Assembly: GCA_035873375.1 (NCBI GenBank)
Contig: JAYWMQ010000012.1
Coordinates: forward strand, 1-58,014
Length of the DNA: 58,014 nucleotides
Direction of reading: 5' to 3'
Source of the DNA: Nitrospirota bacterium
Lineage (GTDB): Bacteria > Nitrospirota > Thermodesulfovibrionia > Thermodesulfovibrionales > JdFR-85
Shown here: one piece after another, positions 10,736 to 36,803 of the stretch
Layout of the letters: each line of letters begins with the position of its first letter
Position numbering within the stretch: position 1 is the stretch's first letter
Program-made: the position numbers and the translations under genes
The notes under the pieces: generated by a model
Database searches by the model: none
Seen by the model: only the letters and a program-made list of their open reading frames with translations
What the model was told of the DNA's origin: nothing

Positions 10736-13384
10736 TCAACTCTCTTCAAAAAGTACTTCATGCAATACCTGGCTGAGTTGCTGCAGTCTATAGGGTTTTG
10801 CCACAACACCATAAAAACCGTACTTCTTGTAGTCAGCCATTATCGGGTCATTGGAATAACCACTTGAAACAATTGCCTTAACCTCAGGGCATATCTCAAG
10901 CAGTCTCTTGATGGCTTCTTTTCCTCCCATGTCACCTGGAACGGTCAGGTCCATTATGACTGCATCAAAGGGATATCCGGATTCCTTTGCTTTTTTGCAA
11001 ACATCGAGCATCTCGGTGCCGTTTGCTGTAAACTCGACTTCATATCCGACAAGGCTCAGCATTTTACCTGCCACATCTCTCACGATCGCTTCGTCATCCA
11101 TTATGAGAATCTTCCCGCTTCCGGTAAGGGGTTTTTCATTCGACTCCGTCCCTGCCGGACTCTGTTTCAAGGAAGCAGGAAGATAGATGTGGAAGGTTGT
11201 TCCGGCCCCTGGCTCAGATTCCACGGTGATATATCCATCGTGTTTTTTTATAATGGAATAGGTAGTTGCAAGTCCAAGACCGCTTCCCTTCTCCTTAGTG
11301 GTAAAGTAAGGGTCAAATATCTTTTGAATGTGTTTTTTGAGGATGCCGGTGCCCTGGTCTTTTATCGATAATTTTATAAAATTCCCCTTCTTCAGAGGCA
11401 GTAAGTCTTCTGGTCTGACGGTTATATTTTCAGCACTCACCTCAACAGTTCCGCCCTCCGGCATGGCTTGCTGCGCATTAATGATGAGATTGTCGATTAC
11501 CTGACTGAACTGTGCTTCATCTATCTCAACCGGCCGGAGGTCTTCTGCAATGGAGACCTTGCAAATAACATTAGACCCCCTTAATGCAAAACATACTGAA
11601 TCTTTTATTATCTCTACCACCGAAGCTGTTTTCTTTACAACCTCTCCACCCTTGGCAAAGGTCAGCAACTGTCTGGTCAGGCCCCTGGCCCGCAAAGATG
11701 CCTTTTCAGCCTCAGTCAATCTTTCGAATATTTTGTCTTCTGGTTTTATATAGGTTTTTGCAATGGAAATATTGCCCAGAATTGCAGTCAACAAGTTGTT
11801 GAAATCATGGGCGATACCTCCGGCAAGTACACCTAATGATTCGAGTTTCTGTGTTTTTAAAATCTCTTCTTCCATCTTCTGTTTTTCTGTAATATCGCGG
11901 AGCACAAGAACCACACCGATAACTTCACCCTTCCTGTCACAGATGGGCGCAGCGCTGTCCGCTATAATCCGCTCTGTGCCGTCTCTGGCTTTAAGGACTG
12001 TATTGTCTGCAAAACCAACGATACTTCGGGTTTTCAGTACCTTCACTGCGGGGTTCTCTACGGGTTCTCTGGTCTTTTCATTGATTATGTGGAAGACCTC
12101 GGTCAGTGGTCTTTTAACGGCATATTTCTGTGTCCAGCCTGTGAGCTCTTCGGCTATCTTGTTTATCAGAACAATATTTCCGTCTGTGTCGGTAGTTATG
12201 ACGCCATCGCCAATTGACTGCAGGGTTACGGCAAGGCGTTCTTTTTCAGCAGCAATTGCTTCTTCTGCACGGGAGCGCTCAATTGCTGTAGCGAGTACGT
12301 TGGACACAGCCTGGAGGAAGTGAATATCATCTTTAGTGAATTTGCGAAAACTGGTTGTATGTGCACCGAGGATGCCAAAAGGCCGCTCCTTTCCATGAAT
12401 GATAACGCTTATGCCGCTGACTACACCGTGGTCAGTGAGCAACTGTGGCCCTCTGAACCGGCTTTCGGTCCTGAGGTCTTCAACAACGACCGGCTTGCTG
12501 GAGACAAGGGTATATCCAGCCTGTGAGTCTCTCTCTGTTCCCACTGTTGTATGGCCTGTAAGCCCTTCTTTCCAGCCCACACCAGCCCGTAACAGGAATT
12601 CGTTGCCATCCGGAAGGAGCTCCAGTACCTTGCAATACTCCACATCGAGGGTCCGGGCAACAAAGGAAACGGATTCTTCCATCAGTGTGGAAGGCCCTAT
12701 GCCGGAAAGTGCGCGCTGACCCAGTTCAGCCACGACTGCCTGCTGGTTTGCACGGACTTTGAGTTTTTCCCTTGTCCGTTCACGCTCGGTGACATCATTT
12801 GATGTTAATACAAATCCTGCAAGTTCGCCTTTTTCGTCCAGTATGCCGGAGACTCTTGATTCAAGTATCCTGATGCCGTTTTCCGTTTTCTGTTTCAGTG
12901 TATATCTGTATTCACCTTCTTTTCTGACCATTTCCATGGCATGACCAAAATAGGATGAATCTACCTTTTCTCTTGTATGCATCTCCATGACAGTCCGCCC
13001 AATGACCTCATCTGCCTTGTAACCAAAGAACTTTTCAGCCACTGGATTATAGTATACGATACGAAAGTCGAGATCTGTGGCAGCCATGGCCATGTCTGTA
13101 AACGAGCGCATTATGTTGTCAAAATAAACTTTTTTCTTTGTCAGTGCCCTTTCTGTCTCCCGAAGGTGTTTGACAAGAAAGACAACAATGGCCGCAACGA
13201 TTAGAGAAAGTACAAGAGCATCAATAGCGCCTGTCATGAGTAGACTGAGACGAAGTTCTCTGTATATTATCAGACCCGTAATGACATTTGTTAGCGCTGT
13301 CAGTATTTCTGTCAGAAGCATTGATATCCAGACAATATGCCACAGGCTTACGGTCTTAAGCTTATGAATGATTTGTGGTATCAT
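10736..13384 (-). CDS. Membrane hybrid histidine kinase (PAS-GAF-PAS-HisKA-HATPase-REC)
   Basis: The 882-residue protein begins with two membrane segments (about 13-40 and 48-72) with almost no periplasmic loop, then a PAS domain (about 85-200), a GAF domain (about 215-370), a second PAS domain (about 385-500), the HisKA dimerisation helix with phospho-acceptor His526 in GGIAHDFNNLLT, and the ATPase domain with N box DNLIINAQQA and GSGLGLATTYSI. A receiver follows (about 757-880) with acceptor Asp812 and Lys863. The short sensor region suggests a cytosolic or membrane-state signal read through PAS/GAF. No cognate output regulator is adjacent; the next gene upstream is the HDOD protein. Confidence 0.92.
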   Translation of the reverse strand: MIPQIIHKLKTVSLWHIVWISMLLTEILTALTNVITGLIIYRELRLSLLMTGAIDALVLSLIVAAIVVFLVKHLRETERALTKKKVYFDNIMRSFTDMAMAATDLDFRIVYYNPVAEKFFGYKADEVIGRTVMEMHTREKVDSSYFGHAMEMVRKEGEYRYTLKQKTENGIRILESRVSGILDEKGELAGFVLTSNDVTERERTREKLKVRANQQAVVAELGQRALSGIGPSTLMEESVSFVARTLDVEYCKVLELLPDGNEFLLRAGVGWKEGLTGHTTVGTERDSQAGYTLVSSKPVVVEDLRTESRFRGPQLLTDHGVVSGISVIIHGKERPFGILGAHTTSFRKFTKDDIHFLQAVSNVLATAIERSRAEEAIAAEKERLAVTLQSIGDGVITTDTDGNIVLINKIAEELTGWTQKYAVKRPLTEVFHIINEKTREPVENPAVKVLKTRSIVGFADNTVLKARDGTERIIADSAAPICDRKGEVIGVVLVLRDITEKQKMEEEILKTQKLESLGVLAGGIAHDFNNLLTAILGNISIAKTYIKPEDKIFERLTEAEKASLRARGLTRQLLTFAKGGEVVKKTASVVEIIKDSVCFALRGSNVICKVSIAEDLRPVEIDEAQFSQVIDNLIINAQQAMPEGGTVEVSAENITVRPEDLLPLKKGNFIKLSIKDQGTGILKKHIQKIFDPYFTTKEKGSGLGLATTYSIIKKHDGYITVESEPGAGTTFHIYLPASLKQSPAGTESNEKPLTGSGKILIMDDEAIVRDVAGKMLSLVGYEVEFTANGTEMLDVCKKAKESGYPFDAVIMDLTVPGDMGGKEAIKRLLEICPEVKAIVSSGYSNDPIMADYKKYGFYGVVAKPYRLQQLSQVLHEVLFEES

Positions 13385-13592
13385 GGATCAAGGTTTTGTA
13401 GTTGTGACTGTAACATATCGATTGGACCTGCAATAATTCTAACATGATTTGTCGATACTTGAGTATATAAAAATAAGGGTAATACCCAAAGCCGGCTATA
13501 AAAAGCCTCAAGCAAGTGAAGGAAGAGTCTGTTATATTGCTTTCAACAACCATTTATCACTGGATTCGGGTAATAAATCCAAGGGGTTGGTA

Positions 13593-14408
13593 TCATAGAG
13601 TAAAGAGTTCCTGCATTGTGGCGGCTTCTTCTCCGGCCTTTTCCCTGACTTTTTTTATCTTGCCTTCGTCAAGTGAAAGCTCCAGAACAATGGCGTCGTG
13701 TTCTTCAGTCCATATGCCATCGTCTTCGATTTTAGGGAAGAAGCTCCTTGATAGTGCCTCAGCAAGAGATATGACAGATGAGGTCTCCCTGTAGTTAGCA
13801 CACATTGAGGGCTTGTGGTGGTATCTGACCGAGCATACAATCTCCTCAGGCAGCAGGGCATTTTCGAGAAAATTTCCTGCTGCTGCTGGATGGTCAATCC
13901 CGAAGACCTCTCTTTCCTTCAGGGAGATATTATCTGAAGACAGCATTGATATATATTTTTCTCTGTGCAGAGTTAGAAAAATAACCCTTCCGATATCGTG
14001 GAGCAGTCCTGAGACAAAACAGATTCCCCGTTCAATATTGCATACATGGTCGGAAATATTTGCAGCTATTATGCCGACCTCGTAAGAGTGTTGCCAGAGT
14101 TTTCCAAGCCTTTCACGTTCGTTTCTGCCTAAAAATTTAAAGACAGAGGTTCCAAGGCAGATTCCTTTTACAAGATCATACCCCAGGAACATAATCGCCT
14201 GTTCAAGGGAGTTGACCTTGCCGGCATGACCAAAATAGGGAGAGTTTGCCACCCTGAGGATCTTTTCCGTCAGGGTTTGGTCATGTTTTATGACATTTGC
14301 AATATCAACAAAGGTAGATTGCTCATCCTGAAGTACCTCAAAAAGACGCCTGAGGATTACGGGAAGGGTCGGCAGGTCTGTTAGACTGGTAATATTCATA
14401 CTCGTCAT
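13593..14408 (-). CDS. HDOD-domain signalling protein
   Basis: The 271-residue product is a single HDOD domain: TDLPTLPVILRRLFEVLQDE at the N-terminus, ANVIKHDQTLTEKILRVANS near 40-59, and GLLHDIGRVIFL plus EREVFGIDHPAAAGNFL in the HD-like part. HDOD proteins are non-enzymatic relatives of HD phosphohydrolases that link signalling, motility and c-di-GMP control. It is followed by the hybrid kinase gene and preceded by the orphan receiver gene, whose sigma-28-type promoter could also drive it (133-base gap). The ATG at 14408 has no clear ribosome binding site; ATG 14399 is an alternative. Confidence 0.85.
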   Translation of the reverse strand: MTSMNITSLTDLPTLPVILRRLFEVLQDEQSTFVDIANVIKHDQTLTEKILRVANSPYFGHAGKVNSLEQAIMFLGYDLVKGICLGTSVFKFLGRNERERLGKLWQHSYEVGIIAANISDHVCNIERGICFVSGLLHDIGRVIFLTLHREKYISMLSSDNISLKEREVFGIDHPAAAGNFLENALLPEEIVCSVRYHHKPSMCANYRETSSVISLAEALSRSFFPKIEDDGIWTEEHDAIVLELSLDEGKIKKVREKAGEEAATMQELFTL

Positions 14409-25450: not shown

Positions 25451-26302
25451 CTAAGGTGATTGTTTTTTAATATAAGTGGTTGGCGCTATCCCGTCCGGAT
25501 CTTTCATCTGGGGAGTCGATGTAGTCATGGTAGCCGAATTATACTGGTCTGCCTCGGACAATGACACATAACCGTTCCCATCGTAGTCTGACCCAACGGG
25601 GGTTCCACAGGGGTCTTTTTCGTCCAGGGCATTAGGTAGGGTGTAGTGAAATTCCGCATGAGGGCGTCCGTTACACGTAGTAGAGATGGAGTAGGAGTTT
25701 TCCACACAGGTGGAAGAGGTGAGGGTGACCGTGTTGTTGCCGGATGAAGCCATGTTGTCGAGCATTCCCCCTGAATGGCAGGTCATTACGTCGACTGTAC
25801 GCTTCTTGTAGTTCGGCACGCTGCCCATGTATGTTGTCAGTTCCGTGTCTGTAACCGTCTCTCCGGTATTGCTGATATACATCGTGAGGTCGCATGAATC
25901 CGGGCCATAGCCGCCTCCGTGCCCCATCCACCAGACATAGAGATAGTCCCTGCTCTTTACCTTGGTGCCGAGCGTATTGAAGACAGACTGAATATTTGCC
26001 TTGTTCACGGCCATATCCGTAATGGCATGTCCATACTGGGTTGTGGCGTTGTAGTCTGCGTGTACCGTATTGAAATCGGTTCCATCTCCGTAGAGGACGT
26101 AAATCTTGTCATCCTTAAACCCGTTATCTCTCAACATGTTGTATTGCAGGTAAAGGTCGTACCACCACTCGGAGTTGTATGACACGTTGTCCGCCGTGAC
26201 CACGTTTGTGCTGATAAGGACGGCATATTTCTGGGCACAGCCGAAAGAAAGAACAATAAACAGACTGAGCATGCAAAGCGTGACCCTTCTTAAAACATAC
26301 AT
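25451..26302 (-). CDS. Exported clan CD cysteine protease (C13/legumain-like)
   Basis: The 283-residue protein starts with a signal peptide (about 1-22; SFGC could be a loose lipobox). The mature part has the clan CD fold pattern: strand YAVLIST, YDLYLQYNMLRDNGFKDDKI helix and strand, then strand-plus-His LYVWWMGHGGG (His128) and strand-plus-Cys TVDVMTCHSGG (Cys175), the catalytic dyad of legumain/caspase relatives. The segment 239-250 is a canonical EF-hand-type calcium loop (DYDGNGYVSLSE). The protein would act outside the cytoplasm; its substrate is unknown. It is the last gene of a three-gene operon with two other exported proteins, 36 bases after the middle gene. Confidence 0.75.
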   Translation of the reverse strand: MYVLRRVTLCMLSLFIVLSFGCAQKYAVLISTNVVTADNVSYNSEWWYDLYLQYNMLRDNGFKDDKIYVLYGDGTDFNTVHADYNATTQYGHAITDMAVNKANIQSVFNTLGTKVKSRDYLYVWWMGHGGGYGPDSCDLTMYISNTGETVTDTELTTYMGSVPNYKKRTVDVMTCHSGGMLDNMASSGNNTVTLTSSTCVENSYSISTTCNGRPHAEFHYTLPNALDEKDPCGTPVGSDYDGNGYVSLSEADQYNSATMTTSTPQMKDPDGIAPTTYIKKQSP

Positions 26303-26338
26303 GACAATCCTCCCTTTTCATAAGGTTATAAAAGAGGC

Positions 26339-28183
26339 CTATTTCTTCTTCAAGTTACCTGGATAGAGCCTGAAAACTCTCCCTGCCTGTCTATCTGTAT
26401 ACCAGAGGTATTGACCGTCATACGCAAGTGCCGCGGGTTTCTTCCCCTCGATATCTGCTATGAACTTCCTGGAGCGAAGCATTTCGTGTTCCCTGCCTTC
26501 AATGTTCCGCCTGTCGATCTTTGGGGGGAAGTCTTTACCGTTGTAGCAGATACTCCATAAATACTCGCCGTCCGAAGCAAGACCTCGGGGATTACAATCA
26601 GCATAAATACTCTTGATGATTTTACCGTCCTCAGGATCGACCTGGTTGAAGGAACTCGAGAACCCGGCATAAATGGCCGTCCAGAGGTATTTCCCATCCC
26701 AGGCAATACCTTCAAGGGATTTGAACCCCTTTCCCCTGGGTATCCTTATGGGTATGCTTCTGACGACCTGTCCGCTCTGAGGATCAATAGCGGTGATCTT
26801 CATCGTTTCTTCATCGGCTATCCATAACCGTTCTCCATCAAAGGTCAGGCCTTTCGGTTTTTTGATGTCAACCTTGAAGGTACTGACTACTGCTCCTGAG
26901 AGCGGATCCAGGCCACGAATCTTTTTGCTTGCCTTGTCAACAACCCAAAGCCTCTTTCCATCCCAAGCCAGGCCTTCTGCTTTTACAGACGGGAGGGGGA
27001 TAGAAAACTCCATTCTCGGCATACGGGTATATACGTGTTTTTTCTGGCTCACTCCTATCACCTTCCCGGCCGCCGTGACCTTCCAGAGAGGGAAGTAACG
27101 GCTGGTTACCACATCGCCCCGAGGGAAGACGAGTTCGGCCTCGGGTTTGAGCCTGCCTGCATTGCCTTCTATTTGCACGAGAGCGATCTTGATGGCTTCC
27201 TCCTTCGGCAGGTATCTTACAGGCTTGAAAACCCCGACTTCCTGAAACCCCCCTGTATAAGCGTTTACGATCACGGCTGCTGAAGCGTTTATACTGTCTG
27301 TCGAATAGGGGATGATGTAATAACCACCGTGTGCCTTATTGACAAGTAACGGTTTCAGCGGCCTTGCCTTCTTCAAAATCCTGTATTCTTTTAATTTGTA
27401 TATCTTTTCCCCCTTGATCCACCTGACTGCGGAAGCAAGGGCCTTGTCAGGAGGGATGATCCTGCCGACGAGTATCTCGGGAGGGGCAAGTGCGACCCCG
27501 CTGACAGTGGGGGGCTCTATGACGGCCACATACTTGCCCTGAAAACTGCTTCCCGTCTTGGAGACGGGAAGGAACTCGCTGTACCATGTGCTCCCGGAGA
27601 CGAATCTCTCGATTGACGGATCCCCGAGATCAACTGCGGGGTCATTGAACCAGACATATTGCAGGTTGACGGAAGTGGTTCCCGGGGAGGTGGGATCAAC
27701 GTCGGTTATAACCCCCCTGACGGCGATCCAGTGTTCCGTGTGTGAAGTATAGCTGTTGTGGGACAACGTGTCCTTCAATACTGCTACGGGATAACTGTTT
27801 CTTGTCATCCAGTAAGCAACCCAGAACATCAGTTTTTGGGGTGTGTTCCTGTTGTAAACATACCAGCTTCCCGTTGGTGTACAGAGGGAATTCATTGCCC
27901 CTTTCAACCCTTCCGGGTCTGTATCCCACATTGTTTCAACCTTGTTTCCCTGGATTGCGCCCCATACGTCTTCCTGCAGTACCGTGCAACTCCCCGAGGG
28001 GTATCCCTCCATGAGCATCTGCCCTGTGGCAGGGCCGCACCAGTTCAGGGCCTCTTCCGGATGGTCAGGCACGGTCAGCATCACACTATGTAAGGGGTCT
28101 GCCCATGCCAGGGTATTAATCATCAAGGCGGTTACTGCAACTATCGTGCTGATACTTTTAATGATCGATTTTCTATTCAGCAT
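26339..28183 (-). CDS. Exported papain-like (C39-type) protease fused to a beta-propeller
   Basis: The 614-residue protein has a signal peptide (about 1-28, cut after AWA). Residues about 30-190 look like a papain-fold peptidase: NWCGPATGQMLM with candidate nucleophile Cys49, EHWIAVRGV with His151, and VWFNDP with Asn180, resembling C39/C70-type domains. A central region (about 230-385) is unassigned. Residues about 390-612 hold at least five repeats of the form GLAWDGKxLWxxDxxxxKIxxLDPxxG, blades of an NHL/YncE-type beta-propeller. The gene is 27 bases after the upstream beta-propeller gene and 36 before the C13-like protease gene. I infer a secreted or surface protease whose propeller recognises a partner. 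Confidence 0.68.
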   Translation of the reverse strand: MLNRKSIIKSISTIVAVTALMINTLAWADPLHSVMLTVPDHPEEALNWCGPATGQMLMEGYPSGSCTVLQEDVWGAIQGNKVETMWDTDPEGLKGAMNSLCTPTGSWYVYNRNTPQKLMFWVAYWMTRNSYPVAVLKDTLSHNSYTSHTEHWIAVRGVITDVDPTSPGTTSVNLQYVWFNDPAVDLGDPSIERFVSGSTWYSEFLPVSKTGSSFQGKYVAVIEPPTVSGVALAPPEILVGRIIPPDKALASAVRWIKGEKIYKLKEYRILKKARPLKPLLVNKAHGGYYIIPYSTDSINASAAVIVNAYTGGFQEVGVFKPVRYLPKEEAIKIALVQIEGNAGRLKPEAELVFPRGDVVTSRYFPLWKVTAAGKVIGVSQKKHVYTRMPRMEFSIPLPSVKAEGLAWDGKRLWVVDKASKKIRGLDPLSGAVVSTFKVDIKKPKGLTFDGERLWIADEETMKITAIDPQSGQVVRSIPIRIPRGKGFKSLEGIAWDGKYLWTAIYAGFSSSFNQVDPEDGKIIKSIYADCNPRGLASDGEYLWSICYNGKDFPPKIDRRNIEGREHEMLRSRKFIADIEGKKPAALAYDGQYLWYTDRQAGRVFRLYPGNLKKK

Positions 28184-28210
28184 ATTGTCTCCTCCTTTGT
28201 CTTTTCACCC

Positions 28211-30088
28211 CTATGGACAGGTAAAACCGCATTCTGCCAAGCCGCAGGTTGTTGTTGTGTTGCTGATGGTTACGGACTTGTAATAATTCCGCCGGAGAAT
28301 ATAGTCGTACCCGTTGATTGTTCTTTTTCCTGCCCTGAGCTCAAAGGTGTGGGCACAGTTACACTTTGCACTCCACATTACAGGTTTTCCGATGGAGTCT
28401 TTGGGGATATAGTTCAGGACTCCGCTCCATGCATGAGGGGGAAGCGGAGCAATGTGGTTACTGTAAAAATCACGGTATCCGTCTATAAACTCATGTTTAT
28501 TATCTCCCCAGAGGGCCCTGAGCCAATAGAAAAGGAGATGGTTGTTTGGGTCATAGGCCGTTATCTTGAAGTAATACTCGTTATTGCCCTCGGTGACGAT
28601 GTCGCAGGGTTTTATCAACTTGTCCGGCGAGCCTTTCTGCCAGATCCCGACGATCTTGACATCAGGAGGTGTGTTGTCGACAATCAGGGTCAGCTCGTTG
28701 GGCACCGGCAGCGAAGCCAGCGAGGATGTTATGTCCACACCTCCGGCATTATATATTTTCACACGGAAGGAGTAGGTACCGTTTTCACCGCTCGGCCACC
28801 TCATCATCCAGTAAGGATACCCCCATAATTCAGAATGATACAGGCCGTCACCCTCTACCGGTATCTCGTATTTGTAGCCGTCAACGGCTGGAGCGACATT
28901 AAAGGGTTTGTACTTCATTACTGTGCTGTCCCACCTGCTCACTGTCCAGCTATGACCCAGATAAGAGGTAGTTCCGTCCCTGGTCATTTCAACGGCATAG
29001 TATTTGGCCCCGAGCGCAAGAAACCGGGTGAAGTTGCCGAAGATATTCAGCGTGCCTCCAAAGGGGGAATGTCTCACCTTATAGAAATATCCCGGGAGGG
29101 TGGATACGGTATCGGCATAGCCGTTGATGATGCTCGATACAGGCACGTGTCCGACGGCCATGAATATGGGCCCGGTAAGCTCAATCAGATCGATCTTTAT
29201 TATCTCGTTTTCCGCTGTGGCAAAGAGGGGAGTGCCTGTTCCCTTGACAGCCAGGCCAGTGGGCCGCCAGGGCATTGCGAGTCCGGCTGTTATATTGAAA
29301 AGGACAGGGGTTCCCGGCAGGTCGAGTCTCGATATCCTGTTTGCCGGCTCCCTTTCAGCGACGTAGAGGGAGTTTTGACCTGAATCCGTCCAGGCCAGGA
29401 AGAATGGAGCGACCAGGCTGGTACCGGCCACCCCGTTGGTCACTACATCTTCCACCTTGAGGCCCAGAGTGAGATCAATCTTGGATATACGTGCAGGTGC
29501 GCGTTGTTCGGTAACATAGGCGTATGCCCGGTCTCCTGTTATGGCAAGTCCCACCGGGTTTTCCAGGTTCTTGTAAACCGGTGTCTTGGCTCCCGTCATA
29601 AGATCAATACGCCTCAATCTTCCGTCGTCATAGCCGACCACGTAGGCATGATTGTTCGGAATGTCGAGAACGAGCTGCTGCGGTGCTCCCAGGTTATAGG
29701 TAACAAGGTTTTTTGTCCCTGTGGCGATATCAACTCTCCATAATCCTCCTGTGCCTGGATTGTCCCTCGTCGTGACATAAGCGTAGCCGTGGTCAATGTC
29801 AAGCTCGACGTCTTCTGCATGAGAAAACCCGGTGGCTACAATTTCAACGACGCATGAGAGGGCAATGTTGTTTTCACATTCGGGGGTAAGGAGTATGCGT
29901 TTCAGGTCCGGAGTATTATTCTCGACAAAATAGAGATGGTTGTTCGTTTCATCAATGGCAGCCCCCACTGCCGCACTCAGCCCTGTAACAATCGGCGTCT
30001 TGGTTGCGGCCAGAGTGAAATCTGCTCCTGTAAACAATATGCCCACACACGTTAAAGACAAAAATAGATACCTCAGACTCCTAACCAT
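28211..30088 (-). CDS. Exported beta-propeller protein, function unknown
   Basis: The 625-residue protein starts at ATG 30088 behind GGAGGTGATC and carries a signal peptide (about 1-28, ending LAA). Residues about 30-315 form YncE/NHL-like repeats such as GLSAAVGAAIDETNNHLYFV, NNHAYVVGYDDGRLRRIDL and DRAYAYVTEQ, enough for a six- or seven-bladed propeller. The C-terminal half (about 320-625) is rich in aromatic residues and beta strands and has a cysteine cluster at the end (CGLAECGFTC), suggesting disulfides in an extracytoplasmic protein. It is the first gene of the exported-protein operon. No enzyme motif is seen. Confidence 0.65.
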   Translation of the reverse strand: MVRSLRYLFLSLTCVGILFTGADFTLAATKTPIVTGLSAAVGAAIDETNNHLYFVENNTPDLKRILLTPECENNIALSCVVEIVATGFSHAEDVELDIDHGYAYVTTRDNPGTGGLWRVDIATGTKNLVTYNLGAPQQLVLDIPNNHAYVVGYDDGRLRRIDLMTGAKTPVYKNLENPVGLAITGDRAYAYVTEQRAPARISKIDLTLGLKVEDVVTNGVAGTSLVAPFFLAWTDSGQNSLYVAEREPANRISRLDLPGTPVLFNITAGLAMPWRPTGLAVKGTGTPLFATAENEIIKIDLIELTGPIFMAVGHVPVSSIINGYADTVSTLPGYFYKVRHSPFGGTLNIFGNFTRFLALGAKYYAVEMTRDGTTSYLGHSWTVSRWDSTVMKYKPFNVAPAVDGYKYEIPVEGDGLYHSELWGYPYWMMRWPSGENGTYSFRVKIYNAGGVDITSSLASLPVPNELTLIVDNTPPDVKIVGIWQKGSPDKLIKPCDIVTEGNNEYYFKITAYDPNNHLLFYWLRALWGDNKHEFIDGYRDFYSNHIAPLPPHAWSGVLNYIPKDSIGKPVMWSAKCNCAHTFELRAGKRTINGYDYILRRNYYKSVTISNTTTTCGLAECGFTCP

Positions 30089-30218
30089 GATCACCTCCGC
30101 TAAAATAAGGAATGTTTGCTTCTGATATTTTTCTGTTGGGTTGAGAAGCCTTTACGGCATGAGGTAGTGGATCTCTTATAAAAACTGTGGATCCCTCTAT
30201 TGTTCCGTCGGCAGTCTT

Positions 30219-30488: not shown

Positions 30489-31400
30489 CTAAGACCCAGG
30501 TTCCCCGCCGTTACCGGCCAGTCTGCCCTGGAAGAAGGCCTTTAATTCCTCTTCTTCCTCGATGCCGGTCATACGGCTTGGCAGGGCAGGGTGGGGAGTC
30601 TTCCCAATGACCCTTGTCTTCGTAATGCCACCGGGGTTGTATGGCAGTAAAGTGGCAGTGAGGCAGCCGGTCTTTTTTAGGAACCCGGCTATATCGGCAA
30701 GGTTCTCCCTGGTTGCCGTTGTCCCGGGGATGAGCGGAATCCGGGGAACAACAGGGACGGGAGCGTTCCTTGCGAGGTATTTGAAGTTTTCGAGTATCAG
30801 GCCGTTGTCCCTGCCGGTAAATTTCCTGTGCCTGTCTTCATCAAGAAGTTTCAGGTCAAAGAATATCAGGTCGATACAGGGGAGGAGCTTCTCATTGAAC
30901 TCCTCAAGATTGAACATCCCCGATGTCTGAATTGCTACATGTACTCCTTCCTCCTTCAGCCTCTGCATCACCGCTCCGACGTAATCCATGGATAGTGTTG
31001 GTTCGCCGCCGGAGAATGTAACACCGCCGCCGGAGGTCTCATAGAAGATGCGTTCCTTCAGGAGCGTCTCTACAAGGAGATCGACATGATAACAGGAGCC
31101 GATTGCACTGAGTGCCGTTGAAGGGCACTCAGTGCAGCATGTCCCGCAGGCCGTGCATTTGTCCCTGATTACCCGTTCATCCTCCGGTCTCATCGAGATC
31201 GCCCCTTCGGGGCAGACCTCTCTGCAGCTGCCGCAACCTATGCAGCGGTCTTTGTAGAAAGCGATCTCGGCTGCAGGCGAGATCGACTCGGGGTTGTGGC
31301 ACCATGCACACGATAATGGACACCCTTTCATGAAGACGGTGCTCCTGATGCCGGGACCGTCGTCGAGAGCAAAGTGGCGTATATCGGATATCAAGGGCAT
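30489..31400 (-). CDS. Glycyl radical enzyme activase (radical SAM, two [4Fe-4S] ferredoxin inserts)
   Basis: The 303-residue enzyme would install the glycyl radical on its partner enzyme with S-adenosylmethionine. The radical-SAM motif is CPLSCAWC (Cys27/31/34), followed by two ferredoxin-type clusters (Cys53/56/59/63 and Cys82/85/88/92) and the SGGEPT motif. The two extra clusters are typical of activases for the CutC/glycerol dehydratase/decarboxylase branch and absent from PflA of pyruvate formate-lyase. It lies 1 base after the SCP2-like gene, downstream of the glycyl radical enzyme. Confidence 0.92.
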   Translation of the reverse strand: MPLISDIRHFALDDGPGIRSTVFMKGCPLSCAWCHNPESISPAAEIAFYKDRCIGCGSCREVCPEGAISMRPEDERVIRDKCTACGTCCTECPSTALSAIGSCYHVDLLVETLLKERIFYETSGGGVTFSGGEPTLSMDYVGAVMQRLKEEGVHVAIQTSGMFNLEEFNEKLLPCIDLIFFDLKLLDEDRHRKFTGRDNGLILENFKYLARNAPVPVVPRIPLIPGTTATRENLADIAGFLKKTGCLTATLLPYNPGGITKTRVIGKTPHPALPSRMTGIEEEEELKAFFQGRLAGNGGEPGS

Positions 31401-31401
31401 A

Positions 31402-31863
31402 TTATACTTCCCCTGTGGCTATCAGCTGGAGCCGTTTGGCCATGTAAGCGAATTTGTATACGTAGTTGAGATTACCGTTGAAGGTCACATCCTGTCTCAG
31501 GAGCGAGCCGAGTATGTCGGGTTTCGGTGAGAGGAGATAGCCCATAAGGGCCCTTCCGTTTCTGAAGACCACGGTGACATCCGTATCCTTCAGTTCCTTC
31601 TCGCAGACCTTCATCCTGTTGTCCTTGAATGCTACGGCCACTGTTATACTATTGTCACGGCTCCTGAAGAGGTAGCGGCCGTTAAAATCCTTTATGTTCC
31701 GCCTGAAATCCCTGTCCAGGAAAAAGGCAAGGCTCATGAATTTCAGGAGCATCTCAAGAAATTCTTCGGCTGCTTCAGATTCGAGACACTGTAGAAACCT
31801 CTTTCCGAGCCTTTTTGCCCTGAGAGGCCGAAGCAGCAACCAGTTCAGTATCTTCTCAAACAT
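31402..31863 (-). CDS. SCP2 sterol-carrier-like domain protein
   Basis: From ATG 31863, with AAGGAGG 5 bases ahead, the product is 153 residues. After an amphipathic N-terminal region (about 1-55) the rest resembles the SCP2 lipid-carrier fold: a strand pair with VAVAFKDNRMKVCEKELKDT, then VTVVFRNGRALMGYLLSPKPD and the ending LLRQDVTFNGNLNYVYKFAY, a pattern I associate with SCP2-type proteins. Such domains hold fatty acyl chains or other hydrophobic ligands. It is encoded between the glycyl radical enzyme and its activase, which suggests a role with a hydrophobic substrate or membrane contact; that is inference. Confidence 0.6.
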   Translation of the reverse strand: MFEKILNWLLLRPLRAKRLGKRFLQCLESEAAEEFLEMLLKFMSLAFFLDRDFRRNIKDFNGRYLFRSRDNSITVAVAFKDNRMKVCEKELKDTDVTVVFRNGRALMGYLLSPKPDILGSLLRQDVTFNGNLNYVYKFAYMAKRLQLIATGEV

Positions 31864-31885
31864 TTTTGCCTCCTTGTCGGTCTCT

Positions 31886-34366
31886 TCATTCGAATGCAAG
31901 CATCGAGCGGTATTCTTCTGGAAACGGGACGGCCTTTCCGGTGCCCAGGTCGTAGGCAGTCCTTGTGATGATCTCGTCCTTCATGGCCTCGTTAAGGTCT
32001 TTAAAGTATGCCGAGTATCCCGAGACCCTCACCAGGAGCTCAGGATATTTTTCAGGATTATTCTTGGCGTCAATAAGGTCTTCGTAAGACATTATATTGA
32101 ACTGTACATGGAGGCCTCCGTAACGGAAGTAGGACTCGACGGCCTGTGCAAAGGTTTTTATGTCACCGTTGTTTTTTACTCTCGGGTATTTCAGGTTCAG
32201 GGCCTCGCCGCTCGGGATGCAGAGACCGTCGAGTCCGCCCACGGCCTTGAGACAGGCCGAGAGGTCACCTGCCGCCTGTGAGACTGGAGTAATGCCGCTC
32301 GCAAAGACCTTGTAAGCCTTTCGACCGTTAGGAAGGGCTCCCGACAGTTTCCCCTGTCCTGCATGGTTGGTCATCGTCCAGTAGCCCGGCCTGTATTTGC
32401 CGCCCCTGTAGTTTGTATGCCCCTGGTAGAAGTTGTACAGGAAGCGGATCAGGTTCTGCGAGTTTTTGACGGCGATGGGATCGTTGGTGCCGTATTTTGG
32501 TGTTTTGTATACAAGGTAAGCGTGAAGCTTTTCGTTTCCTTCGAAGTTGTCCCTGAGCGCCTGCAGCAGTTCGGCAAAGGTGCATTTTCTGTCGATGAAG
32601 ACCGCCTTCTCTATGGCGCTGAGGGAGTCCACGGTGTCCGCAAACCCGATGTGTGTGGCGCCTGAGGAGTTGTAGGTTGCACCCCCATGGATAAGGTCCT
32701 TGCCTTTTTTTATGGGACCTTCAAAGAACGCCGACAGCAGCGGGGTGGGGAGTATCTCCTGGTGGACACGGCCGAAATACTCGTTCAGCTTTATCGCCTC
32801 TCCTATGAGCCATTTCAATTGAGACTCAAAGGCCTCCCGGAACTCGTCAAAACTTGCAAACCCGGCCGGGTCCCCGGTCTTCGGGCCTATCTGTTCATCG
32901 CCCGTTGCAGGCCTCTTGCCGTTGTACAGGGTGAGCTCCAGGGTGGAGACGAGGTTGAATATGATCGAGCTTGATGCGTCATAGCTCCTTCCTGCTGAGG
33001 CGAGCTCCACGCAGCCGATTATAGCGTAATCCCTTGCGTGCTCTGTTGATGTGCCCTGGTTTTCGAGGACTTTTATATCCACGATATCATTATGGAAGGC
33101 AGGAACGGACCTTGTGTTGACGATCACCTCGGCTACCCTGTCACGATACTCTTCCGTGTTCTTTTCGTAATGGTACCTCGCGTTCAGGCTCGGGTCCCTC
33201 AGTTTCAGGAGTTCCGTGACCCGCAGCATGACATAAGTGAGGTCGTTGACGGCATCCTCCCCGTTTTCGTCAACACCCCCGACAGTGACTGCCGGGACTG
33301 TTCCCGCACCACCGAAGAGTTCTTCCGAGGTCTCGGGTACGAGGTTGGTGTTGTCATTGAGCTTGAGCCAGAGGCAGCCGATGAGTTCCATGGCCTCCTT
33401 GACGGTGAGTATGCCGTTGTCTATATCGTTACGATAATACTTGTAGAGCACCTGATCAAGCCTTCCCGGGCTTATCGCCATGTTTATGTTTTCAGCATGT
33501 ACGGCCACTTGGCAGATCCACAGGGAGTTGACAGCCTCCCGGAAGGTACTCGCCGGTTTTGCAGGTACCCTGGCGCATATCCCGCTCATCTTCAGAAGGT
33601 TCTCCCTCCGTGACGGGTCTTTTTCAACCCTCGCGAGTTCAGCCGCCTTTTTGCTCAGGTTCCCGGCGTAATCGAGGACTCCCTTCATGACCGTCTGTAC
33701 TGCCTGGTAGAACGCAAGACTCTGCCTGTCGCCGGGTGTATTTACTCCCTTGTCCCTGACTTCCACCTCCCCTGTCCCGGCCTCCTCGATGATTCCCTCG
33801 ATTCCCTTGCCGAGGACCTTTTTGTAGTCGGGGACTGTATGAGAGAGGGTGCCTGCCTTGCTTGCAAGGAAGAAGACTATACGCTCGAAGAGTCTCATGC
33901 AGTCGGGGTTGTTGAATTTCTTTCTCGTGTATTCAAGGATATTGCGTTCCATCCAGTAGGGGAATATATCGAAGTTCAGCTCCCCGGCATCTTCCCTGGA
34001 GAGGATCAGGGGGTTTTTCCCCCTTGTGCTTATGGTGTCGAGCTCCGGCCAGATGGTCATCCCCGTAAGCTCCTGGTAGACAGGTGCACCGAAGGGCTTT
34101 GATGTTGTGCTCCCTGCAAGCAGGTTATCATCGAAGAAGACCGGTTTCCTGTTTGACAGGAAATAGGCTACTGCCTTTGCATACCTCGTCTCCATGGGTT
34201 CATCCGGGGAAGACATGTCTCTGAGGTAGCGGGTGGTGTACCTTGCCCTTTCAATGCAGACCTCCGGCCTGGTTTTAAGGAGATTCTCTCTCAAGGTTCT
34301 GAGGAGATCCAGGTTCTCTAAGGTATACTCACGTAACCTGATGTCTTTTAAAGTCGTAACGCTCAT
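31886..34366 (-). CDS. Glycyl radical enzyme of the dehydratase/lyase/decarboxylase branch, substrate unknown
   Basis: The 826-residue protein starts at ATG 34366 behind GGGAGG. The glycyl radical loop RVSGYSAYF places the radical at Gly783, and the active-site thiyl residue is Cys452 in IIGCVEL with Glu454 two residues on, the Cys-x-Glu arrangement of CutC, glycerol dehydratase, isethionate lyase and arylacetate decarboxylases; pyruvate formate-lyase has Cys-Cys instead. The ISPGRLDQVLYKYY segment near 325 is typical. The sequence after the motif (ASAGRSYDASSS) differs from the PQxPGK(T) that I recall for CutC and relatives, so I do not assign a substrate. Activase, lipid-binding protein and two membrane proteins accompany it. 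Confidence 0.88.
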   Translation of the reverse strand: MSVTTLKDIRLREYTLENLDLLRTLRENLLKTRPEVCIERARYTTRYLRDMSSPDEPMETRYAKAVAYFLSNRKPVFFDDNLLAGSTTSKPFGAPVYQELTGMTIWPELDTISTRGKNPLILSREDAGELNFDIFPYWMERNILEYTRKKFNNPDCMRLFERIVFFLASKAGTLSHTVPDYKKVLGKGIEGIIEEAGTGEVEVRDKGVNTPGDRQSLAFYQAVQTVMKGVLDYAGNLSKKAAELARVEKDPSRRENLLKMSGICARVPAKPASTFREAVNSLWICQVAVHAENINMAISPGRLDQVLYKYYRNDIDNGILTVKEAMELIGCLWLKLNDNTNLVPETSEELFGGAGTVPAVTVGGVDENGEDAVNDLTYVMLRVTELLKLRDPSLNARYHYEKNTEEYRDRVAEVIVNTRSVPAFHNDIVDIKVLENQGTSTEHARDYAIIGCVELASAGRSYDASSSIIFNLVSTLELTLYNGKRPATGDEQIGPKTGDPAGFASFDEFREAFESQLKWLIGEAIKLNEYFGRVHQEILPTPLLSAFFEGPIKKGKDLIHGGATYNSSGATHIGFADTVDSLSAIEKAVFIDRKCTFAELLQALRDNFEGNEKLHAYLVYKTPKYGTNDPIAVKNSQNLIRFLYNFYQGHTNYRGGKYRPGYWTMTNHAGQGKLSGALPNGRKAYKVFASGITPVSQAAGDLSACLKAVGGLDGLCIPSGEALNLKYPRVKNNGDIKTFAQAVESYFRYGGLHVQFNIMSYEDLIDAKNNPEKYPELLVRVSGYSAYFKDLNEAMKDEIITRTAYDLGTGKAVPFPEEYRSMLAFE

Positions 34367-34446
34367 AATGTCCTCCCGGTCTCTCTCCGCCGGCGTGACG
34401 TGGTGAAGCCTTTTGCCGGACGCGGTAATTGTTTTCAGTCGGTACT

Positions 34447-35007
34447 TCAGTCGGTACTTATGTTGCGAACATATAAATAGCATCCTGCCAGAGATCCCCA
34501 GAAAAATACGGTAAGGACGAGCCAGTATATGAAGAACGGGTTGTCCAGGAAAGAGACAAAGTCGGCATTCCTGTAATTCTCATAAGTGGTGGCAATGTTA
34601 AAAGTAATATCGCGGGTTAGGTAGACTATCAAGAGAATAAGTATTAAAAAAGATATATATGACGCCCTCAGCAACGATGTCCTGCCCCTCTCTATCAGGA
34701 GACGTCCTGACTCAAAACCGGCAATGGTCGGTATGAAGGACATTGCGATTAACATGAATGCCGAAAGTGCCAGGTAAGGTGTTCCCTGGACATTATCTAC
34801 CCATTTCCAGAAGTAATTTGTTTCCCACGCAGGCCAGCCGAGGAAAAAGTATATTATCACCGGCGTGGTTATCAGGTAGGCGAATGTTATCGCTATGGCC
34901 CTGATCCTGGAGACCGTTACCGTATCTCCTCTCGTAACGGCATCTCTCGATGCATCGGCAATGACCTGGCCTGCAACGATTCCTACGGGTATATCGATTA
35001 ACAGCAT
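34447..35007 (-). CDS. Small polytopic membrane protein, paralogue 1 of the glycyl radical locus
   Basis: From ATG 35007, with GGAGGG in front, the product is 186 residues with about five membrane helices. It starts LLIDIPVGIVAGQVIADASR and carries GWPAWETNYFWKW after the second helix. The protein encoded just upstream has the same two landmarks, so they are paralogues. I know no family name. Such a pair could form a heteromeric membrane complex, for example for substrate or product transport; that is inference from the operon only. Confidence 0.6.
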   Translation of the reverse strand: MLLIDIPVGIVAGQVIADASRDAVTRGDTVTVSRIRAIAITFAYLITTPVIIYFFLGWPAWETNYFWKWVDNVQGTPYLALSAFMLIAMSFIPTIAGFESGRLLIERGRTSLLRASYISFLILILLIVYLTRDITFNIATTYENYRNADFVSFLDNPFFIYWLVLTVFFWGSLAGCYLYVRNISTD

Positions 35008-35063
35008 CCCTATCCCTCCTTGATGTTGCTCTATGGTTAGCAGATTAACAGCCTGTTTAGGAG

Positions 35064-35639
35064 TTATTCCGCTATCTTGCCGGAAAACCTCTTTATCCAG
35101 ATACCGAATATCACGGACGTGACGACGAAATACCCCATTACGGCAAGCCATGACCAGAAGAACGAAGGGGTGTTGAAGAGGGTGGTTGTTTCATTCGGGA
35201 CTGCATGGAACTCATTATACGTTCCGATATGGTACCACGTTAAGGGCCAAAGTATGAAGGGTAGCAGGGTTGCAATAACGCTCAGCACGGATAACAGCTT
35301 GACGGTTCCCTCTTTGCCTCGCCGGTAGAGGGCGTGTCCTGTGAAATAACTTCCGGTGCCGAGCAGGATCATGGAGATATTGAATGCTATGTAAAAGAAC
35401 GCCACCGGTGGATTGAAGGCAGGTTTCTCGATCCATTTCCACCAGTACATGGATTCCCAGGCCGGCCATCCGATGAGCAGGAACATTCCAACAGGAGCAA
35501 AAAAGAGTGCAAAATACAGGCTGATCGGGCCAGTCAGCCTGTTGGTAAAGATATTTTCCTCTTTCTTCAGATACTTCTTGCTCAAAAGTGCGAAGATCTG
35601 TCCTGCCGCAATTGCCCCGGGTATATCTACCTGTATCAT
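35064..35639 (-). CDS. Small polytopic membrane protein, paralogue 2 of the glycyl radical locus
   Basis: The 191-residue protein starts at ATG 35639 with TGGAGGAAAAG in front and has about five membrane helices. Shared landmarks with its neighbour are VDIPGAIAAGQIFALLSK at the N-terminus and GWPAWESMYWWKW after the second helix. It is the first gene of the presumed operon (this gene, its paralogue, glycyl radical enzyme, SCP2-like gene, activase). No catalytic motif is seen. Confidence 0.6.
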   Translation of the reverse strand: MIQVDIPGAIAAGQIFALLSKKYLKKEENIFTNRLTGPISLYFALFFAPVGMFLLIGWPAWESMYWWKWIEKPAFNPPVAFFYIAFNISMILLGTGSYFTGHALYRRGKEGTVKLLSVLSVIATLLPFILWPLTWYHIGTYNEFHAVPNETTTLFNTPSFFWSWLAVMGYFVVTSVIFGIWIKRFSGKIAE

Positions 35640-35984: not shown

Positions 35985-36803
35985 TCAATTAAGGCTGTAG
36001 CCCTTCGGTTTTTCTTTGCATAAGTGCTTGAAGTGAGAGAAGGGGCTCTTCTTTTTCCGTAGCGACTTCTTGTAAACCCTCGGAGAGGTCTTCATTATCC
36101 TCTTGAACGTCCTTGTGAAGTGGAACTGATTTGTGAAGCCGCATGCAAAGGCGATGTCACTCATGGAGAGGCCGTCTTCCCTGAGCATCTTTATAGCCTT
36201 GGAGATACGCAGTCTGTTTACATACATGATGAATGTGATGCCGGTTTCCTTCTTGAAAGTCCTCTCGAAGCATGATATGCTCTTCCCCGCCTCTTTGGCG
36301 ATCTCGGAAAGTTTTATGCGGCTGGTGTAGTTTTTATTGATATATCTGATTGCCCTGTGGATGCTGCTCCAGGGACTTTGAGGTAACTCCTCGGTGACGT
36401 GGTTAATGCCTAATGCAGCTCTGATGCTCTTTTTCAACTCGCACATGACAAGGGGTTTTTTGAAATAATCTTTTACCCCAAGCCGGAAAACAGTGACTGC
36501 GAGCTCTTCAGAACCGCAGCGGGTTACTATGATTACCGGCACAGCGGGTTTGACATATCTGAAGAATTGAAGCAGTTCCGTGCATGAGCTATCGCCAAAA
36601 TGATCAAGAAGCACAAGGTCTATGTCATTCCGGAGGAAAGACTCACAAATTTTATCCTGATAGGTTTCAACGATTACACTGCACTCTCTCAGTGAAGAAA
36701 CAAGACCCTTGTGGTATTGCCCTGCATCTGAATCTATCAGTAGTATGCGGTGTTTTCCCTCTAAGCCGTTTGATTTAATGGTGTTTCTCCCTCTAAATGA
36801 CAA
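35985..36803 (-). CDS. Response regulator with AraC-type DNA-binding domain
   Basis: The 272-residue protein has a receiver (about 18-130) with acidic residues at the start (LLIDSDA), acceptor Asp67 in LVLLDHFG and a Lys in DYFKKP, then an AraC/XylS double helix-turn-helix (about 148-250) with IKLSEIAKEAGKSISCFERT and MSDIAFACGFTNQFHFTRTF. It is encoded upstream of the glycyl radical operon on the same strand and is the likely regulator of that locus. No cognate kinase is adjacent. The basic tail (KKSLRKKKSPFSHFKHL) is unusual. Confidence 0.88.
   Translation of the reverse strand: MSFRGRNTIKSNGLEGKHRILLIDSDAGQYHKGLVSSLRECSVIVETYQDKICESFLRNDIDLVLLDHFGDSSCTELLQFFRYVKPAVPVIIVTRCGSEELAVTVFRLGVKDYFKKPLVMCELKKSIRAALGINHVTEELPQSPWSSIHRAIRYINKNYTSRIKLSEIAKEAGKSISCFERTFKKETGITFIMYVNRLRISKAIKMLREDGLSMSDIAFACGFTNQFHFTRTFKRIMKTSPRVYKKSLRKKKSPFSHFKHLCKEKPKGYSLN

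Follow-up and report, generated by a model that had tools for sequence, protein, structure and literature searches.

What three tightly spaced genes for exported proteins do together is the question raised by the (-) strand between 30088 and 25451 of the window, the 58,014-nucleotide stretch of Nitrospirota DNA analysed here. The initial annotation had read them as a secreted operon with two unrelated cysteine protease folds and had proposed a calcium-regulated extracellular proteolytic cascade. The genes, referred to here as PROP, C39P and C13 in their 5' to 3' order, are co-directional and lie 27 and 36 bp apart; their coordinates, order, strand and spacing, together with the three signal peptides, are as first described. 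Strong ribosome-binding sites precede the three starts (GCGGAGG, AGGAGG and GGGAGG, respectively), and for PROP the ATG at 30088 is a better fit than the GTG at 30094. Promoter and terminator scans returned signals no better than the shuffle level. The C13 gene is present in one copy in the host genome.

The last gene encodes a legumain-like Peptidase_C13 protein of 283 amino acids (25451..26302, (-)), identified by Pfam, profile alignment and its signal. It passes the Pfam cut-off for Peptidase_C13 (PF01650; 26.6 bits vs a cut-off of 22.8), and a profile of 6 homologs aligns over columns 23-277 with plant asparaginyl endopeptidases of known structure (E 8.5e-10), and also with legumains and metacaspases, the span being approximately the whole mature length. 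The catalytic dyad noticed at the outset in the GHGGG and TCHSGG motifs was confirmed: the profile alignment places His128 (25919..25921, (-)) and Cys175 (25778..25780, (-)) in register with the dyad of solved legumain-type enzymes, and both residues are conserved in the remote homologs at loci L010 and L011. The protein is probably a lipoprotein because the Gly-Cys that closes its signal peptide is kept in every ortholog having that end, the predicted lipidation site being Cys22 (26237..26239, (-)). The likeness to legumain thus covers the whole catalytic core. However, the trio protein ends a few residues past the aligned core and lacks the C-terminal activation peptide and LSAM prodomain of legumain, it is a predicted bacterial lipoprotein, and it carries an EF-hand loop inside the core. 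Moreover, Glu45 and Trp46 stand at the two S1 positions compared, where legumain has Arg44 and His45 to form its zwitterionic pocket for Asn/Asp (PMC4357240). Since these S1 residues are replaced, specificity would be changed, or activity could be lost; Glu45 and Trp46 hint at a preference for a basic P1 residue. The papers searched included none on bacterial C13 proteins with EF-hands or propellers, and a plasmid search returned no relative of C13.

The EF-hand-type calcium loop of C13, DYDGNGYVSLSE, lies at amino acids 239-250 (25553..25588, (-)), where the initial annotation had placed it. Its pattern appeared in 0 of 300 shuffles of the protein tail, and its ligand positions are invariant among the C13 orthologs. 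Of 23 further C13-like ORFs in the phylum that carry the dyad, 4 have a strict and 2 a loose EF loop, all 6 of them 60-63 residues past the Cys motif, which is also the spacing in the trio protein; the remote homologs of L010 and L011 have the loop in degenerate or full form. Because the loop recurs at like spacing in unrelated bacterial C13 proteins, this comparison makes it a recurrent family trait and not evidence of a special cascade. Several clan CD families are activated by calcium (PMC4357240), which makes it plausible, by analogy, that this loop has a structural or activating function.

The middle gene encodes C39P (614 aa; 26339..28183, (-)), an exported protein in which a papain/C39-like domain (aa 29-225; 27509..28099, (-)) is followed by two PepSY-like units of a helix and three strands (aa 244-380; 27044..27454, (-)) and a five-bladed propeller (aa 389-612; 26348..27019, (-)). 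It had been described as a protease-like domain fused to a propeller; the propeller is supported by the predicted model, the protease-like domain is C39-like and below the family cut-off, and the two PepSY-like domains lie between them. The analysis supports a secreted operon encoding a clan CD protease, a papain/C39-like domain joined to a propeller, and a further propeller protein. The domain covers the full Pfam C39_2 profile (PF13529) with 13.4 bits vs a cut-off of 24. Comparison with a set of C39_2 proteins by hhalign gave an E of 5.9e-6 over 43 columns around the Cys, and the N-terminal part of C39P matches a Pfam-confirmed C39_2 protein at 34% over 70 residues, again around the Cys. Profile searches of PDB sequences with the C39-like domain gave no match. 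AlphaFold models of C39P and PROP were built from only five sequences each and have mean pLDDT values of 60 and 55, respectively. They yielded propellers in both proteins, and the C39-like domain came out at a pLDDT below 50, at which the prediction does not resolve its fold. Over the PepSY-like units, which were recognised from the model and a weak PepSY match, pLDDT is mostly 64-89 and approximately 50 near aa 355.

Homolog alignment points to Cys49 (28037..28039, (-)) as the predicted nucleophile, His151 (27731..27733, (-)) as the predicted catalytic histidine and Asp181 (27641..27643, (-)) as the predicted third residue of a Cys-His-Asp triad that is kept in all three trios found (see below). 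A triad of Cys49, His151 and Asn180 had been suggested; all three residues are where it placed them, but the conserved third one is Asp181, which like His151 is invariant in 8 homologs, whereas Asn180 is not. In the C39 domain of LahT150, the triad is Cys27/His101/Asp117 and Gln21 lies six positions ahead of the Cys (PMC6363468). C39P resembles it, and the C39-like family, in the order of the triad and in the motif flanking the Cys, and differs in its score below the Pfam cut-off, in its export and fusion to PepSY-like domains and a propeller, and in having Glu43, six residues before Cys49, at the oxyanion position where C39 enzymes have Gln; this Glu is found in three of three trios. In papain, the Gln19Glu mutation changes catalysis. 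Three relatives (L146-L148) have both Gln and Cys, like active C39 enzymes, and two others (L045 and L086) have Ala at the oxyanion position and Ser or Gly at the nucleophile and still hold the same gene pair. Because of this series (Gln/Cys, Glu/Cys, Ala/Ser or Gly), the C39-like domain is, as far as its sequences tell, drifting from protease to pseudo-protease, with the trio as an intermediate.

These observations bear directly on the cascade proposed at the start, in which the C39-like protein and C13 would both be active, one activating the other under the control of calcium, while the propellers recognise substrate. The preserved Cys, His and Asp of the trios would fit it, as would the export of both proteins and the PepSY-like domains adjoining the C39-like domain; such domains are inhibitory prodomains in other peptidases. 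However, the sub-threshold family score, the Glu at the oxyanion position and the loss of the nucleophile in two relatives do not sustain a pair of active proteases, and C13 lacks a zymogen domain. A two-protease cascade is therefore possible but in our view unlikely, and less likely than an envelope unit centred on C13.

The predicted models show propeller folds for both partner proteins, and the PDB chains that match the models cover the propellers only. The C39P propeller aligns with 3mbr over 200 residues (Z 21.5, 3.0 Å) and has the fold of plant-type glutaminyl cyclases, scoring 22.0 vs a cut-off of 22.3 with PF05096. This match suggested cyclase activity. The catalytic residues of plant-type glutaminyl cyclase are Glu69, Asn155 and Lys225 (PMC5837995), which we took to be carried by the motifs YE-G/S-TG, NE-L/M-E and TGK. 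These motifs are present in five Nitrospirota cyclases and none occurs in the trio propeller sequences; because they are missing, the likeness is one of fold only and cyclase activity was dropped as a reading. Among the viral contigs searched, nothing was found beyond a weak propeller match to C39P.

PROP (625 aa from the ATG at 30088; 28211..30088, (-)) has orthologs in L012 and L013 and consists of a signal peptide, a propeller and beta-rich domains. The propeller is modelled as a six-bladed NHL-type structure (aa 42-303; 29180..29965, (-); PDB matches with Z of approximately 18), and the C-terminal beta-rich half (aa 345-607; 28268..29056, (-)) has a low-confidence model. Of the earlier description of PROP as a propeller with a cysteine-rich tail, the propeller is upheld by the model and the tail is not general, being missing from the L012 ortholog, which ends in NTGLSCP. 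The C-half occurs without a propeller in L009, L045 and L086, in the last two of which it adjoins a C39-PepSY gene, and a distant version stands at the corresponding place in L148. Because of this arrangement in relatives, the PROP C-half and the C39-PepSY protein are read from gene content as a conserved core pair, to which the trio adds, as its defining features, the propellers and the C13 gene.

The trio itself is conserved as a unit, complete and collinear in three of the 340-345 Nitrospirota genomes searched. These genomes (G000, G190 and G045) belong to different orders or classes, and full-length PROP was found only in genomes having full-length C39P and C13. Genome G104, in which C13 is accompanied by a propeller fragment and the PROP C-half, lacks the C39-like domain, so C13 does not necessarily rely on the full trio. 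In a Deltaproteobacteria-labelled MAG (L014), a C13 fragment adjoins transposase-like genes, and the core pair is present in the same genome. Between the window and G190, identity is 81% for C13, 59% for C39P and 56% for PROP, vs 46% for RimO and 51% for an M50-type peptidase gene used as references. The gap between the 81% of C13 and the 46% of RimO in this genome pair suggests horizontal transfer of the trio. Comparison of the trio genomes gave pN values of 0.11-0.27 and pS values of 0.75-0.86, the synonymous sites being saturated. With pN this low, the codon comparison indicates that all three genes are maintained under purifying selection.

The surroundings of the trio and of its relatives vary. 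Directly upstream of the trio, the window encodes a glycyl radical enzyme and its activase (30489-34483), with G+C raised to 0.52-0.54; the enzyme falls below the cut-off for the PFL2-3 subfamily and the activase above that for PFLE_PFLC. Two membrane proteins of no known family follow (34447-35639), one of them with approximately 60% identity to a protein encoded close to the C39-PepSY genes of L146-L148, whose genomes group with a Deltaproteobacteria-labelled MAG. A response regulator with a fused AraC-type helix-turn-helix is encoded at 35985-36803; L045 has a relative next to its core pair, and next to the L012 trio stands a receiver-only relative. Around that trio (genome G190), L012:805-4791 and 11583-13897 encode large proteins of 1328 aa and others of 240-260 aa, of no known family, two of which recur in L148, in another phylum. 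In genome G408, a lone T4 gp19-type tail-tube gene (L148:6340-6855) stands beside the pair formed by the distant PROP C-half and a C39-PepSY gene. The nearby proteins scanned included no recognisable sheath protein, and a link to extracellular injection systems was rejected, as no tail-tube gene was found in the window's genome or the other trio genomes. Likewise, a functional tie to the adjoining flagellar genes was discarded because the region 5' of fliL differs among the family relatives in which it could be read. PADLOC gave no match for anti-phage defence.

Several related clusters contain other secreted hydrolases: a metzincin in L013, a papain C1 and a putative GH13 enzyme in L146-L148, a subtilase-like protein in L086 and a transglutaminase-core protein in L045. 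This variation would fit independent scavenging hydrolases that degrade external protein for nutrition and are clustered only through joint mobility. Against this stand the unvarying gene order of the trio and its short intergenic gaps, the degenerate nucleophiles, which are unlike a degradative enzyme, and the single copy of C13 in the host genome, and we regard a purely nutritional role as improbable.

Two loci brought maturation genes into view. At L009:10136-13389, a gene for a 201-aa protein whose tail is very rich in Cys, possibly a modified peptide, lies between two radical SAM genes, of which one gives a weak SPASM match; this group adjoins a C13 gene and a papain gene that is broken. 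In L010:8171-10313, YcaO (SagD-type) and SagB-type genes lie approximately 6 kb upstream of a remote pair in which the C13 gene directly follows a propeller gene. An export and leader-cleavage system for RiPP-type peptides, to which these genes and the radical SAM maturase-like genes adjoining related clusters in L009 and L045 would point, is nevertheless very unlikely for the trio, since no such maturase or convincing precursor lies beside it in the window, L012 or L013, and the nearby radical SAM gene of the window is the glycyl-radical-enzyme activase.

We therefore favour, tentatively and with a little less than even confidence, a horizontally spread cell-envelope module for protein processing, with the C13 lipoprotein as its main, calcium-bound protease, the propellers as scaffold and the C39-like domain as a minor partner. 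That the three proteins form one envelope processing unit is probable because the trio travels together between distant bacteria. In such a unit, C13 would be anchored in the envelope and is predicted to work as a cysteine endopeptidase or transpeptidase, and calcium at the EF-hand loop may be needed by it or stabilise it. The propellers of PROP and C39P would hold the substrate or act in scaffolding and assembly of a complex, and the C39-like domain may be a weak or regulatory partner. A far more speculative version, to which we give very little weight, is a transpeptidase complex in which C13 would cut exported proteins and join them to an amine of the envelope, the propellers would gate or scaffold the reaction, and the Gln-to-Glu C39-like partner would be a pseudo-enzyme or an altered catalyst. 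In GPI transamidase, the C13-like PIGK is partnered by PIGT, a predicted propeller (PMC8465894). The trio resembles it in combining a C13-type enzyme with a propeller partner, known in the trio from gene pairing alone. Unlike the trio, GPI transamidase is eukaryotic, embedded in the membrane and active in lipid transfer. If true, this version would make the trio functionally analogous to GPI transamidase or to the clan CD sortases.

We judge the trio to be a variant arrangement of known parts. To our knowledge, bacterial legumain-family proteins have been little studied, and the C13 protein of the trio lends itself directly to biochemical testing, since its partners are fixed, its calcium site can be predicted and its specificity pocket is altered. 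C39P offers a natural case of a papain-like triad retained alongside an altered oxyanion residue, with loss of the nucleophile in relatives; the series would thus provide a traceable route from protease to pseudo-protease.
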